From: Caulobacter sp.
GTDB lineage: Bacteria > Pseudomonadota > Alphaproteobacteria > Caulobacterales > Caulobacteraceae
Direction of reading: 5' to 3'
NCBI GenBank assembly: GCA_016125585.1
Contig: WGLL01000006.1
Coordinates: forward strand, 62,001-126,000
DNA: 64,000 bases
The position numbers and the translations under genes were made by a program. Shown piece by piece: positions 2,216-9,025 of this stretch; position 1 is the first letter of the stretch; the number at the start of each line of letters is the position of its first letter. The notes beneath the pieces were generated by a model. It saw only the letters and a program-made list of their open reading frames with translations. It searched no databases and was not told the DNA's origin.

Positions 2216-2800
2216 TCAGCCCTCCACGGCGTAGTGGATGGGCTTGAAGCTGTGGTTGTTCGATTGCAGCGCCGAACAGGCGGTGAGGGCGATGATCAGG
2301 TCCTGTTCGGCCTCGAACAGGATGTGGTCGCCGGCCTTGCTGAGCGGCGGCTCGACGGTCAGGGCGCTGGTCTTCGGGTCGACGACGACGTTCATGAAGA
2401 TGTTGAAGGCGGTCGGGATCTGGTCGGGCAGGACGCCGTAGGGCGCCAGGGCGGCGGCCAGGTTGCCGAAGCAGCCGCGGTGCGGGTTCTCGTCGCCGTA
2501 GATGATGCGGAAGGTGTCCTTCGAGCAGGGCGTCAGCAGGAAGTCATGGCGGCCGACGGTGTCCTCGATGATCCGCAGCATGACCTTGCTGCGGTTGGAA
2601 TAGAGGGGGTCGCCCGTGGTCAGGTACAGGCGGCTGGCGTAGTCGAGGCTGCGGCCCGAGGAGATGACCTCGGCGGTGTCGGCGGCGTTGAAGGCCAGCA
2701 TGTCGGAGACCTGCTCGCCCTTCGGATCGATGACCCGCAGGCGCTGGCCGGCGTTCAGGCGGAAGGCGACGCCGGAGCGGGGCGGGATTTCATGCGTCAT
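2216..2800 (-). CDS. DUF1989 (urea carboxylase-associated) family protein
   Basis: 194 residues, the whole length of a DUF1989/UAAP domain. Typical family features are visible: KGEQVSDMLAF near the N-terminus, the DTVGRHDFLLTPC block, RGCFGNL, FNIFMNV, and a late AGDHILFEAEQDL segment. Relatives of this family are urea-carboxylase-associated proteins and subunits of carboxyguanidine deiminase, so a role on a urea- or guanidine-like compound is plausible but not proven. The start at 2800 (MTHEIPPRSG) overlaps the YqcI/YcgG gene by 11 bases, so it is the last gene of a translationally coupled three-gene operon. The frame stays open upstream to 3064, but that part is out-of-frame reading of the neighbour. 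Confidence 0.85.
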   Translation of the reverse strand: MTHEIPPRSGVAFRLNAGQRLRVIDPKGEQVSDMLAFNAADTAEVISSGRSLDYASRLYLTTGDPLYSNRSKVMLRIIEDTVGRHDFLLTPCSKDTFRIIYGDENPHRGCFGNLAAALAPYGVLPDQIPTAFNIFMNVVVDPKTSALTVEPPLSKAGDHILFEAEQDLIIALTACSALQSNNHSFKPIHYAVEG

Positions 2801-3461
2801 TGGCGGGCCTGCTGGTGAAGGGGGGGCGCCAGGTTGGGGGCACCTGGCGGCCGCTGTACTGCCGGGCCGCGGAGGCGTCGCCGTGCCGGGCCAGCATGGG
2901 ATTGATCGAGCCGGCCAGGGCCTTGTCCCGGGCCAGAATCTTGTCGCGCAGGGTCTCGTAGCGGCCGTCGGCCCGCAGGGACTCGAACTGGTCATGGGGG
3001 TTGAACACCAGCGCCGGGGCCTCGAAGCGCCGCGCGGGACGGCTGGCGCCGGGGTGCAGGCCAACGACGAAGAAGCCCTCGCCGGCGAAGCTCATGGCGA
3101 AATGGGGATTGGCGACGTCGGGGCTGATCCTGGCGTCGGCGGGATAGCCGTTGAAGACATCCTTGTCGGTCAGGGACTGCAGCCGGGCCCAGAGGGCCTG
3201 TTCGAAGGCGACCTCATCGATCTCTTCAGGCCCGGCGAAGATCACCGCCAGGCTCTGGAACGGCTGGGGGTCGCGGCGATAGCGGGCGGCGAACCGGGAC
3301 AGGGCGGCGTGGATATCGAGATCGTCCCAGGCCGAGCGGATGTCGCGGGCCTGCACCACCTCGATGCGGTCATGGGCCAGGGCCGACTTGGCCCCGACAC
3401 AGGGGAAATTCCGTTCACGGATGAACGCGCGGAACCGCTCGGCCAGGGCTGAGTCAGTCAT
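2790..3461 (-). CDS. YqcI/YcgG family (GntA-like) heme-dependent oxygenase
   Basis: 223 residues. The family signatures are all present: FPCVGAKSA at residues 19-27, HPGASRPARRF at 136-146 and FNPHDQFE at 153-160. This family includes GntA, the heme-dependent N-hydroxylase of guanitoxin biosynthesis that oxidises a guanidine nitrogen, so an N-oxygenase acting on a nitrogen-rich small molecule is the best guess; the substrate here is unknown. It is the middle gene of an operon: its ATG at 3461 overlaps the end of the ATP-grasp-like gene by 8 bases and its end overlaps the DUF1989 start by 11 bases. The protein has no signal peptide and should be cytosolic. Confidence 0.82.
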   Translation of the reverse strand: MTDSALAERFRAFIRERNFPCVGAKSALAHDRIEVVQARDIRSAWDDLDIHAALSRFAARYRRDPQPFQSLAVIFAGPEEIDEVAFEQALWARLQSLTDKDVFNGYPADARISPDVANPHFAMSFAGEGFFVVGLHPGASRPARRFEAPALVFNPHDQFESLRADGRYETLRDKILARDKALAGSINPMLARHGDASAARQYSGRQVPPTWRPPFTSRPANDA

Positions 3462-4437
3462 GGCGGATCATGCGCTCCAGAGCCTTGCCGAGGCGGTGCA
3501 TCGAGCGGATCTTGTCCAGCCACGACAGGGCGATCACCGGGCCGACGTCGGTCTTGTTGACGTCGACGATGTAGATCCGGCCATCGTCGCGGTCGCGCAG
3601 GATGTCGAGGCCGGCCCAGTCGGCGCCCATGCGGGCGTTGAAGGCCCGGATCAGCGCCAGTTCGCGCGGGCTGAAGGTCTCGGCCGGAGTCTGCAGCCTG
3701 GCCCGGCGATTGTGGATGGCGAAGCGGTCGCCGGCAGGCTTGACCTTGACCCAGACCACCACCGGCTCGCCGTCGACGCAGGGGGTGCGCAGGTCGCGGC
3801 TGAAGCCTTCGCTGTCGGTGGTGTCGACCAGACGCTGGTAGACGTGGCCGGGGCGGGGAATGAGCGGCGCGCGGACGATACGGCCGTCGTGGACGCCGTT
3901 CTTCTCGGACTTCTCGACGATGTCGCCGACGGCGGTGCGCGGATCGACCGTCAGCGGATAGCCGAACACCGCCTCGAACACCCGCGCGACATGGCTCTTG
4001 GACACGTCGCCACAGCCGAGGTTGAAGTTGCGCAGGGTGGGCGCCGCGGCCCCCGAGCCGCGGGTGACGTCGTCGAAATAGAAGGCGGCGTCGGCGAGGG
4101 CCGGCTCGGATGCGACGCCGATGCCGCTCCACATCGCCGCGCCCCTGCCGCTCCACATCGCCGCGCCCCGCACCATGTACCAGGGGCGGGGGAGGTCGGG
4201 CGCGAACCAGAGGGACAGGCGGTCGCGCCGGAACAGGAAGGCGAAGGCGGCCCAGGTCCACAGCAGGGTCAGGTAGACCGACCAGCTGGCGATCTCGAGC
4301 AGCAGGCGGTGATCCAGCGCCAGGCGGACGCCGGTCTTGCGCACCTCAACCCGGCCGTCCTTCCACAGGAAGTCGGATATCCAGCCGGCGGCGCGATGGT
4401 CGGAGGAAGAGGGGGCGGTCATGGCCATGGTTGCCAT
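3454..4437 (-). CDS. ATP-grasp-like protein, first gene of the YqcI/YcgG-DUF1989 operon
   Basis: 327 residues from the ATG at 4437; nearby in-frame ATGs at 4428 and 4422 are possible alternatives. The C-terminal half reads like an ATP-grasp fold: KSHVARVFEAVFGYPL, a central KVKPAGDRFAIHN segment and IYIVDVNKTDVGP, which resembles the metal-binding DxN motif at the end of such domains. The N-terminal part has a hydrophobic stretch (LTLLWTWAAFAFLF) that could contact the membrane. An ATP-grasp enzyme would ligate a carboxylate to an amine or thiol. The coding sequence contains a perfect 24-base tandem duplication (see repeat). I could not assign a named subfamily. The gene is coupled to the YqcI/YcgG gene by an 8-base overlap. 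Confidence 0.65.
   Translation of the reverse strand: MATMAMTAPSSSDHRAAGWISDFLWKDGRVEVRKTGVRLALDHRLLLEIASWSVYLTLLWTWAAFAFLFRRDRLSLWFAPDLPRPWYMVRGAAMWSGRGAAMWSGIGVASEPALADAAFYFDDVTRGSGAAAPTLRNFNLGCGDVSKSHVARVFEAVFGYPLTVDPRTAVGDIVEKSEKNGVHDGRIVRAPLIPRPGHVYQRLVDTTDSEGFSRDLRTPCVDGEPVVVWVKVKPAGDRFAIHNRRARLQTPAETFSPRELALIRAFNARMGADWAGLDILRDRDDGRIYIVDVNKTDVGPVIALSWLDKIRSMHRLGKALERMIRHD
4122..4169. repeat. Perfect 24-base tandem duplication inside the ATP-grasp-like gene
   Basis: Positions 4122-4145 and 4146-4169 are identical. The unit is 24 bases, so the reading frame is kept and the protein gains a second copy of RGAAMWSG. The duplication sits in the linker after the N-terminal hydrophobic segment, outside the recognisable ATP-grasp core. 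Confidence 0.95.
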
Positions 4438-4526
4438 AAGCCCCGATGCCCGCCCCGGTTCCGCCTGCCGGGGATTTCAACGGAAAGGGTAGGGAGCCCC
4501 GGGCCCCGTGGGGCGTTGAAGCGGGC

Positions 4527-4898
4527 ATGACCCGCAAATTGATTGTCTCCACCCTGTCAGGGCTGACCCTGGTCTGCGCGCCGGCGGTGCTGGCGGCGGC
4601 GCCGGCCGCCATCGCGCCCGCCATCGGGGCCGCCATCGTCTCCACCCACCCCGACGGACGCACCGCCAGCCTGAGGCTGCACGCCGACCACAGCTATGAC
4701 GCCCGGGGGCGCGATGGCGGCCTCTCCAGCGGGCGCTGGTCGATGAAGGACGGCAAGGTCTGTCTGTCGCAGAAGAAGCCCTTTCCGGGCCTGTTCAGGA
4801 TCTGCAAGGCCTTCCCCCGGGTGGCCGTCGGCGACAGCTGGGAGGATACCGCCTTCAACGGCGACAAGGTGACCAACCGCATCGTCGCCGAGCCGTGA
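4527..4898 (+). CDS. Small secreted protein of unknown function
   Basis: 123 residues from ATG 4527. The N-terminus MTRKLIVSTLSGLTLVCAPAVLAAAP is a clear Sec signal peptide, so the mature protein of about 100 residues is periplasmic or secreted. The mature part contains a GRWSMKDGKVCLSQKKPFPG block and two cysteines, which could form a disulphide. An upstream in-frame ATG at 4446 exists, but it would put a proline-rich tail before the signal peptide, so I prefer 4527. It stands alone between two minus-strand operons and converges on the monooxygenase gene. I do not recognise the family; similar short proteins in this order are annotated as hypothetical. Confidence 0.7.
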   Translation: MTRKLIVSTLSGLTLVCAPAVLAAAPAAIAPAIGAAIVSTHPDGRTASLRLHADHSYDARGRDGGLSSGRWSMKDGKVCLSQKKPFPGLFRICKAFPRVAVGDSWEDTAFNGDKVTNRIVAEP

Positions 4899-7789: not shown

Positions 7790-9025
7790 CTACTTGACCA
7801 GCAGGCCGGTGAGGGCGGGCCTGGCGTAGGTCTCGACCACCGAGCGCGGCGTCACGTCCCCGGCCCAGGCGATCAGGTCGGCGGCCGCGTTGATGGCGGC
7901 GCTGACCATCTGGGCGGCGATGACGGGATCGATCGCCCGCACCGAGCCCTCGGCGATGCCGTCGGAAATCATCGAGGCGAAGCGTTGCGAGACCCGGTCG
8001 GCGCGCCAGACGGTGCTGGTCCGCAGGGCTTCGGGGAGGGCCTGGAGGGCCGAGGTGCGCAGCAGCAGCCCCTCCTCGGTGACCTGGCGCGCCACCAGGG
8101 CCGAGACCGCGCTGCTCAAGGCCCGCCACTGATCGCCGGGCAGGGCCTGGGCGGCCAGCTGGGCGGCGCGCATGACCTCGAAGGTGCGGTCGAAACAGGC
8201 GACCACCACATCGTCCTTGGCGTCGAGGTGGTGGTAGAAGCTGCCCTTGGTGACGTTGAGCCGGGCGGCGATGTCGGTCACCGACACGCCGCGATAACTG
8301 CGCTGGTTGATCAGCGGGGTGGCGGCGGTGAGGAAGGCGTCGCGGGCCGGGTCGCCCAGCCGGGGCGTGATCTCGATGGCGACCGGGTCCCAGGCCTGCC
8401 CTTCGCCGGCGAGGCCATGCGCCAGAATGTCGAACATCCGGGCCTGGAGGCGCGGGAAGTCCTCGATCTCATAGCGGGGCAGCCAGGCCACCGACCAGAA
8501 GATCTGCTCCAGCAGGATGTGGGTGCGGGTGCTGCGGCCCAGGGCGTCGAGGTCCTCGTAGCCCGGGGCCCGGAACAGGCCGCGGATCTTCATGAACAGC
8601 TGGCGGTAGGCCTCGCTGACCGGCCCGCGATACTCCTCGCTCAGCGCCCGGATGTCGCTGAAGATGGTCATCGGCGGCTCTTCCCCACGCCGTACCCGCG
8701 CCTGCAGATCGAGATAGAGCGACAGCAGGCGGCTGAGCCGCCCGGCCAGGTCCGGCTCCAGCGCGGCCTGATCGACCAGGGCGTCGAAACGCTGCAGCCC
8801 GTGCAGGAAGCATTCGACCGCGAGGATTTCCTTCTTGCGGAAATAGTAGGTGACGCTGGTGGTGGTCAGGCCGACCTTCGCCGCCACATCGGCCAGGGTC
8901 ATGCCCTTGAAGCCCTCGGCGTTGAGCACCTCGATGGCGGCGGCCAGCACCGCGTCCTTGCGCTTCTCGAAGCGGGCGGTGGCGGGCTTTGCCTGGGCGT
9001 CGGCGATATCGGCGGAGTCGGCCAT
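7790..9025 (-). CDS. Transcriptional regulator with two tandem TetR domains
   Basis: 411 residues, twice the usual TetR length. The first DNA-binding domain spans about residues 20-66 (helix-turn-helix TLADVAAKVGLTTTSVTYYF) followed by a ligand-type helical domain. A second complete N-terminal-type TetR domain begins around residue 226 (VTDIAARLNVTKGSFYHHLD at about 249-268) with its own C-terminal region. The protein would behave as a covalent TetR dimer or bind two half-sites. It sits between the GPH transporter gene (35-base gap) and the SDR gene, so control of this uptake and catabolism block by its substrate or an acyl-CoA is likely. TetR pairs of this type are known in sphingomonads and Caulobacter. 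Confidence 0.88.
   Translation of the reverse strand: MADSADIADAQAKPATARFEKRKDAVLAAAIEVLNAEGFKGMTLADVAAKVGLTTTSVTYYFRKKEILAVECFLHGLQRFDALVDQAALEPDLAGRLSRLLSLYLDLQARVRRGEEPPMTIFSDIRALSEEYRGPVSEAYRQLFMKIRGLFRAPGYEDLDALGRSTRTHILLEQIFWSVAWLPRYEIEDFPRLQARMFDILAHGLAGEGQAWDPVAIEITPRLGDPARDAFLTAATPLINQRSYRGVSVTDIAARLNVTKGSFYHHLDAKDDVVVACFDRTFEVMRAAQLAAQALPGDQWRALSSAVSALVARQVTEEGLLLRTSALQALPEALRTSTVWRADRVSQRFASMISDGIAEGSVRAIDPVIAAQMVSAAINAAADLIAWAGDVTPRSVVETYARPALTGLLVK

Follow-up and report, generated by a model that had tools for sequence, protein, structure and literature searches.

We examined three adjoining genes within a 64,000-bp stretch of the Caulobacter sp. assembly GCA_016125585.1 (contig WGLL01000006.1, positions 62,001 to 126,000), here referred to as the window, which belongs to a genome of 3.96 Mb in 20 contigs. 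The genes encode an ATP-grasp-like protein, a YqcI/YcgG protein and a DUF1989 protein (Table 1). An earlier reading, made from the letters alone and here referred to as the sequence-only reading, had described them as three overlapping minus-strand genes, and the overlaps of 8 and 11 bases were borne out by the coordinates of the open reading frames (ORFs) together with a homologue-supported start. The DUF1989 ORF was listed from a TTG at 3064; its homologues begin instead at the ATG at 2800, thus the overlap with the YqcI/YcgG gene is 11 bases. Comparison of sequences across genomes and plasmids indicates that the pair of YqcI/YcgG and DUF1989 genes is the deeper unit, and that the ATP-grasp gene is a lineage-specific addition to it.

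Table 1 Features of the three-gene locus (positions in the window)
Feature	Position	Strand	Product, start or basis
ATP-grasp-like gene	3454..4437	minus	327 amino acids, ATG start at 4437; RimK/LysX/ArgX/Ddl fold group
YqcI/YcgG heme-dependent guanidine N-hydroxylase-like gene	2790..3461	minus	223 amino acids, ATG start; PF08892, NF041366, AglA alignment
DUF1989 metal-enzyme-like gene	2216..2800	minus	194 amino acids, ATG at 2800; PF09347, alignment to Tdm and 3ORU
ATP-grasp / YqcI/YcgG overlap, 8 bases	3454..3461	minus	ORF coordinates
YqcI/YcgG / DUF1989 overlap, 11 bases	2790..2800	minus	ORF coordinates and homologue-supported start

The middle protein matched PF08892 (8.5e-55, 186.3 bits against a cut-off of 27), and a profile built from 8 YqcI/YcgG relatives, the window's included, retrieved AglA at 3.4e-16. 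Six bacterial members of the family have been characterised (PMC12866846), and the characterised enzymes carry out guanidine N-hydroxylation with a thiolate heme (PMC12866846, PMC10849742). In the structures of AglA, a thiolate-heme enzyme, the ligand is Cys44 and the fold is described as having no close relative among known heme enzymes (PMC12866846); the label of heme-oxygenase family, given in the sequence-only reading, is therefore wrong, as YqcI/YcgG is a separate thiolate-heme fold. We aligned the YqcI/YcgG proteins of 35 chosen loci at which the gene is paired with DUF1989. The heme-ligand cysteine (Cys44 in AglA, Cys47 in ChmN) aligned with Cys21 of the window's protein and was a cysteine in all 35, the position of AglA Phe182 was Phe in 35/35, and that of Phe152 was Phe in 31 and Tyr in 4. 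The expected signature of a heme-thiolate N-hydroxylase was thus recovered at the level of the alignment. At the position of AglA K225, two of three alignments placed Glu in 29/35 and Ala in 6/35 of the paired proteins. A K225E change permits AglA to use free arginine as substrate (PMC12866846), and ChmN hydroxylates free arginine (PMC10849742); the Glu at this position would at most lean towards an amino-acid substrate.

The third protein matched PF09347 (1.5e-57). DUF1989 proteins have been described in carboxyguanidine deimination (PMC11271267, PMC12186494) and in trimethylamine N-oxide demethylation by Tdm, for which C263, C279, C343, D198 and H276 were proposed as metal-site residues (PMC12560246). 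In an alignment of 25 chosen paired loci (the Hymenobacter DUF1989 being excluded), Cys92, Cys110 and Cys175 of the window's protein corresponded to the zinc-site residues C263, C279 and C343 of Tdm, with the numbering offset of the Tdm chain derived by hand, and each of the three was kept in 25/25. Asp33 (Tdm D198) was likewise kept in 25/25 and His107 (Tdm H276) in 23/25, so that the assignment to DUF1989 made earlier stands on both the family match and the putative metal ligands. Among the 11 trio loci, the mean identity of the DUF1989 proteins reached 83%, against 58% for YqcI/YcgG. Such high conservation would suit a non-enzymatic protein that serves the hydroxylase as a heme-delivery, metal or electron-transfer partner, but the retention of the metal-site residues speaks against this, and we consider it very unlikely.

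No Pfam model matched the ATP-grasp protein. Its sequence gave a weak match to a RimK/MptN-type fragment only (RimK profile E 0.012; MptN 11.7 bits against a cut-off of 350). The predicted structure (pLDDT 88.9, pTM 0.89) has the ATP-grasp fold according to Foldseek, which confirms the earlier assignment, including by the structural check that had been set beforehand. The structural matches were ArgX, RimK, PsnB and DcsG (6jil), at about 10–15% identity. Residues K147, K176, D278, D292 and N294, whose nucleotide or metal roles we assign from RimK-type enzymes, were kept in all 50 sequences of an alignment comprising the window and 49 of the best 80 loci with a relative (see below). The model also has a hydrophobic N-terminal helix (residues 43–69). 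A perfect 24-base tandem duplication at 4122–4169 adds 8 residues; the longer segment was seen in 0/49 homologues, and the model is uncertain at residues 88–94.

Relatives of the ATP-grasp gene were found at 151 loci, and the best 80 of these, all at named loci, were analysed. All three genes were present at 10/80, nine of them from Caulobacteraceae and one from an alphaproteobacterial metagenome-assembled genome; at the remaining 70, the ATP-grasp gene was alone of the three within the stretch examined. The order of the trio was the same as in the window at 7/10 loci, and in the other three (L050, L054 and L055) one or two genes were inverted yet adjoining. As the proteins at the 10 loci are 56–88% identical to those of the window and the genes stay together despite the inversions, the grouping is more than chance. 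In the family-level survey, an ATP-grasp match was detected in 12/99 genomes, and the four closest orthologues (61–68%; G035, G007, G014 and G085) were all accompanied by the other two genes. In a maximum-likelihood tree of the 50 aligned ATP-grasp sequences, the 11 trio proteins fell within a clade of 13 with a support of 100/100; the other two members (L056 and L058) are nested second copies in Asticcacaulis, so that the trio label needs two changes on the tree. This would fit a Caulobacterales ligase having been recruited once to a pre-existing pair and separated from it once later. The conservation of the trio, which the sequence-only reading had set as a check, extends over several Caulobacteraceae genera, but the trio does not hold as the unit, since most of the other places examined have the pair but no ATP-grasp gene.

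The ATP-grasp family itself is widespread in Caulobacterales and Maricaulales: loci L056, L058–L085 and L087–L127 are without the pair, and L057 and L086 are trio loci. At the 70 non-trio loci among the best 80, a gene with a metallo-beta-lactamase fold directly follows the ATP-grasp gene on the same strand at 55, and an Opp-type permease gene lies upstream at 41–42, with both identities taken from one profiled representative per cluster.

Matches to PF08892 were found in 8/99 family, 21/398 phylum and 15/385 class genomes, in sets that overlap. Together they yielded 40 places in Pseudomonadota (8 from the family survey, 21 further ones from the phylum survey and 11 new ones from the class survey, with a broken gene in G524 counted once), and a DUF1989 gene adjoins YqcI/YcgG at 32/40; in G085 the ATP-grasp gene lies between the two, and in G080 they are divergent. 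None of the 11 places added by the class survey had entered the pair profile; the paired ones among them were four intact genes (302–317 bits) and one broken fragment, and the unpaired ones were six genes at 48 bits or less or with no match to that profile. The broken gene (L184, G524) has an internal stop and stands beside a DUF1989 ORF that looks intact and runs to the end of the contig. At L177 and L178, the YqcI/YcgG domains sit within open frames longer than 6500 codons, pointing to fusion with very large proteins, perhaps peptide synthetases. The Bacillus subtilis control genome matched both PF08892 and PF09347; its ycgG and ycgI probably lie close together, an arrangement on which the open literature searched yielded no paper.

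The association was also found on plasmids, where 19 records carried a YqcI/YcgG relative and 505 a DUF1989 relative. Among 40 of the 505, YqcI/YcgG directly adjoined DUF1989 in all 14 best-ranked records (54.7–71% identical), which span three phyla (Sphingomonadaceae, Skermanella, Comamonadaceae, Hymenobacter, Chryseobacterium and Deinococcus). The next DUF1989 records among the 40 dropped to about 38% and were outside the 19 with YqcI/YcgG. The Hymenobacter DUF1989 was split in two and is perhaps a broken gene. Since the remaining neighbours vary between records, the two genes behave like a mobile cassette that is complete in itself. No description of such a pair was found in the open literature; subscription papers and preprint servers were outside the search, and it may be described there.

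Most of the annotated plasmid homologues bear the name gntA, and the window's protein indeed exceeded the cut-off of the NCBIfam model for GntA (NF041366, 235.9 bits against 145). By this name, the protein would be the guanitoxin enzyme GntA and its neighbours would be unrelated to it. However, the constant DUF1989 partner is foreign to that name, and no other gnt-named gene was seen in nine annotated paired plasmid regions (whose gene tables are incomplete) or among five neighbouring proteins of the window, the rest of the genome not having been searched. A guanitoxin function is, in our view, extremely improbable.

The sequence-only reading had also connected the DUF1989 protein with urea and guanidine carboxylases. 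A urea carboxylase (TIGR02712, a model that also covers guanidine carboxylases) stayed below the cut-off in 24 of the 28 genomes with YqcI/YcgG, the window's own included, and the partial matches there were like those of all 14 control genomes; the other four genomes had the carboxylase over the cut-off, with extra DUF1989 copies beside it. DUF1989 itself was present in 27/28. The window's DUF1989 protein also scored far below the UAAP cut-offs (UAAP1 83.8 against 205.95 bits; UAAP2 109.7 against 284.7 bits). Since the carboxylase is absent at the cut-off in 24/28 genomes, the DUF1989 protein of the pair is unlikely to be the known carboxyguanidine deiminase. By this survey and the low UAAP scores the carboxyguanidine/urea pathway was rejected, and the proposed connection is contradicted.

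The same absence of the carboxylase would suit a catabolic role, alternative to guanidine carboxylase, in which a guanidino compound from the environment is oxidised and hydrolysed by the pair, either to obtain nitrogen or for detoxification. The patchy and plasmid-borne distribution of the pair is in line with this, and so is the tie of the DUF1989 family to carboxyguanidine deimination in the reports cited above. On the other hand, no transporter recurred beside the pair upon clustering of the neighbouring genes, no guanidine riboswitch was matched by Rfam in the window or in 11 related loci (where two tRNAs were the only matches), and the four genomes mentioned above carry the pair in addition to a carboxylase with its own DUF1989 copies. 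We regard a catabolic role as rather unlikely.

The neighbour clustering bears equally on biosynthesis of a dedicated small metabolite, as for argolaphos or D-cycloserine, which in Caulobacteraceae would be a ligated, N-oxidised, peptide-like compound. The conservation of the trio at 10 of the best 80 loci, the resemblance of the ATP-grasp model to ArgX, RimK, PsnB and DcsG and the presence of both an ATP-grasp and a YqcI/YcgG gene in the argolaphos cluster all point in this direction. Against it, the pair mostly stands alone, and its neighbours include no recurrent carrier, exporter or additional biosynthetic gene; dedicated biosynthesis is thus also an unlikely explanation.

We favour, with confidence about evenly balanced, a two-enzyme cassette for guanidine N-hydroxylation and hydrolysis to which a ligase has been added. 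In the first step, judging from its family, the YqcI/YcgG protein would have Cys21 as the ligand of its heme and, drawing on O2 and a borrowed reductase, would hydroxylate a guanidine nitrogen in some common metabolite, of which L-arginine or one of its derivatives is the most likely; a guanidine-type substrate is the best inference that the family allows. In the second step, the DUF1989 protein, as a zinc-type enzyme, would hydrolyse the N-hydroxyguanidine, yielding either a urea-type product with hydroxylamine or ammonia, or an amine with hydroxyurea or urea. As the pair is found by itself in neighbourhoods unrelated to one another, and on plasmids too, these two steps should be useful on their own. 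In Caulobacteraceae only, the ATP-grasp protein would then join the product, or unoxidised arginine, to another molecule through an amide-type bond, perhaps at the membrane. The sequence-only reading had instead proposed an obligatory order of ligation, oxidation and hydrolysis; this cannot be the general scheme because the ATP-grasp gene is missing beside the pair at most other places, and the ligase is best read as an optional extra.

Several observations weigh against a fixed pair acting on arginine. The AglA residues that contact the substrate, Gln177 and Arg179, are replaced by Asn and His in 35/35 paired proteins, so the pocket differs; the K225 position is Ala in the window's own protein, with a gap in one of the three alignments; and K196 of AglA, tried as a further guide to the substrate, was not consistently alignable and was set aside. 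The neighbour clustering gave no gene that names the substrate. Eight of the 40 places were unpaired within the 6–13 kb stretches searched (G028, G246:C2, G515, two in G628, two in G718, and G705); five of them (G515, G628 and G718) fall in one genus, two of these within the frames of more than 6500 codons, probably peptide-synthetase genes, and G246:C2 (336 bits) is the single clear unpaired case among the close relatives. Five plasmid YqcI/YcgG records were also unpaired, and in the one whose neighbours were examined, from Rahnella, the gene (219 bits) belongs to another operon, which lacks DUF1989. In favour of the pair, the pairwise identities of YqcI/YcgG and DUF1989 correlate (r 0.77 over 25 loci, with 0/2000 permutations as high), but this may reflect shared descent. 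The operon-like run of the Rahnella plasmid (L170, 4956–10241) also holds SDR, 2Fe-2S, LysE-type exporter and MOSC genes.

The genes around the trio in the window were considered as well. The neighbouring flavin adenine dinucleotide (FAD) monooxygenase, SDR and double-TetR genes were excluded as parts of the system, because their clusters are too rarely shared: the TetR cluster is common only to L048, L049 and L148, and the monooxygenase cluster to these and L145. Between the FAD monooxygenase gene and the trio lies a plus-strand ORF of 150 amino acids (4446–4898) with no Pfam match; in L148, a monooxygenase-type ORF runs directly into the trio. The double-TetR gene (7790–9025, minus strand) encodes a single protein of 411 amino acids with two TetR DNA-binding domains. 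None of the three trio proteins matched an anti-phage family in PADLOC.

YqcI/YcgG enzymes have so far come mainly from natural-product clusters. If the two-enzyme reading is true, the presence of a stand-alone pair in soil and plant bacteria, both chromosomal and plasmid-borne, would make guanidine N-hydroxylation an accessory trait of ordinary bacteria, DUF1989 would gain a fixed partner and likely a new reaction, and genes labelled "guanitoxin biosynthesis GntA" may be unrelated to guanitoxin. More tentatively, and as a possibility that we think would more probably fail than hold, the pair may be an undescribed mobile two-gene system of at least three phyla. Heme N-hydroxylation of a housekeeping guanidine, for instance arginine, and a new DUF1989 activity that hydrolyses N-hydroxyguanidine would then yield a small, reactive nitrogen compound (an N-hydroxy amine, hydroxylamine or hydroxyurea) for signalling, nitrogen release or competition; Caulobacteraceae would have added the ATP-grasp protein, which may be located at the membrane.

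Compared with known systems, the window's ATP-grasp protein shares the fold and the conserved K147, K176, D278, D292 and N294 with LysX/ArgX, RimK and other ATP-grasp ligases, and differs from them in its low identity, the missing Pfam match and the extra N-terminal helix. With GntA, the YqcI/YcgG protein shares the NF041366 match, but neither its constant DUF1989 partner nor the gene content of the nine annotated plasmid regions is that expected of GntA; with CgdAB (UAAP1/UAAP2), the DUF1989 protein shares the fold family, but not scores over the UAAP cut-offs or a regular carboxylase in the same genomes. For D-cycloserine, the hydroxyarginase is DcsB, of the arginase type, and DcsG is the ATP-grasp protein of the pathway. 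In the argolaphos cluster, an ATP-grasp gene (AlpC) and a YqcI/YcgG gene (AlpD/AglA) are clustered as in the window, and AglA acts on arginine pre-coupled to aminomethylphosphonate; unlike the window, that cluster shows no DUF1989 gene among 15 of its 16 listed ORFs and has many phosphonate genes, and the amide-forming enzyme was left open there. The D-cycloserine pathway has DcsA, a YqcI/YcgG heme protein linked to arginine N-hydroxylation, followed by the hydroxyarginase. A YqcI/YcgG heme protein is thus followed by a metallohydrolase with an ATP-grasp protein in the same pathway, and DcsG was among our Foldseek matches, although it matched the window's protein no better than other ATP-grasp ligases did. 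The metal partner in the window is DUF1989 and not of the arginase type, and no other D-cycloserine gene was seen adjoining; by analogy, D-cycloserine biosynthesis would still be the nearest precedent for the logic of the pair.

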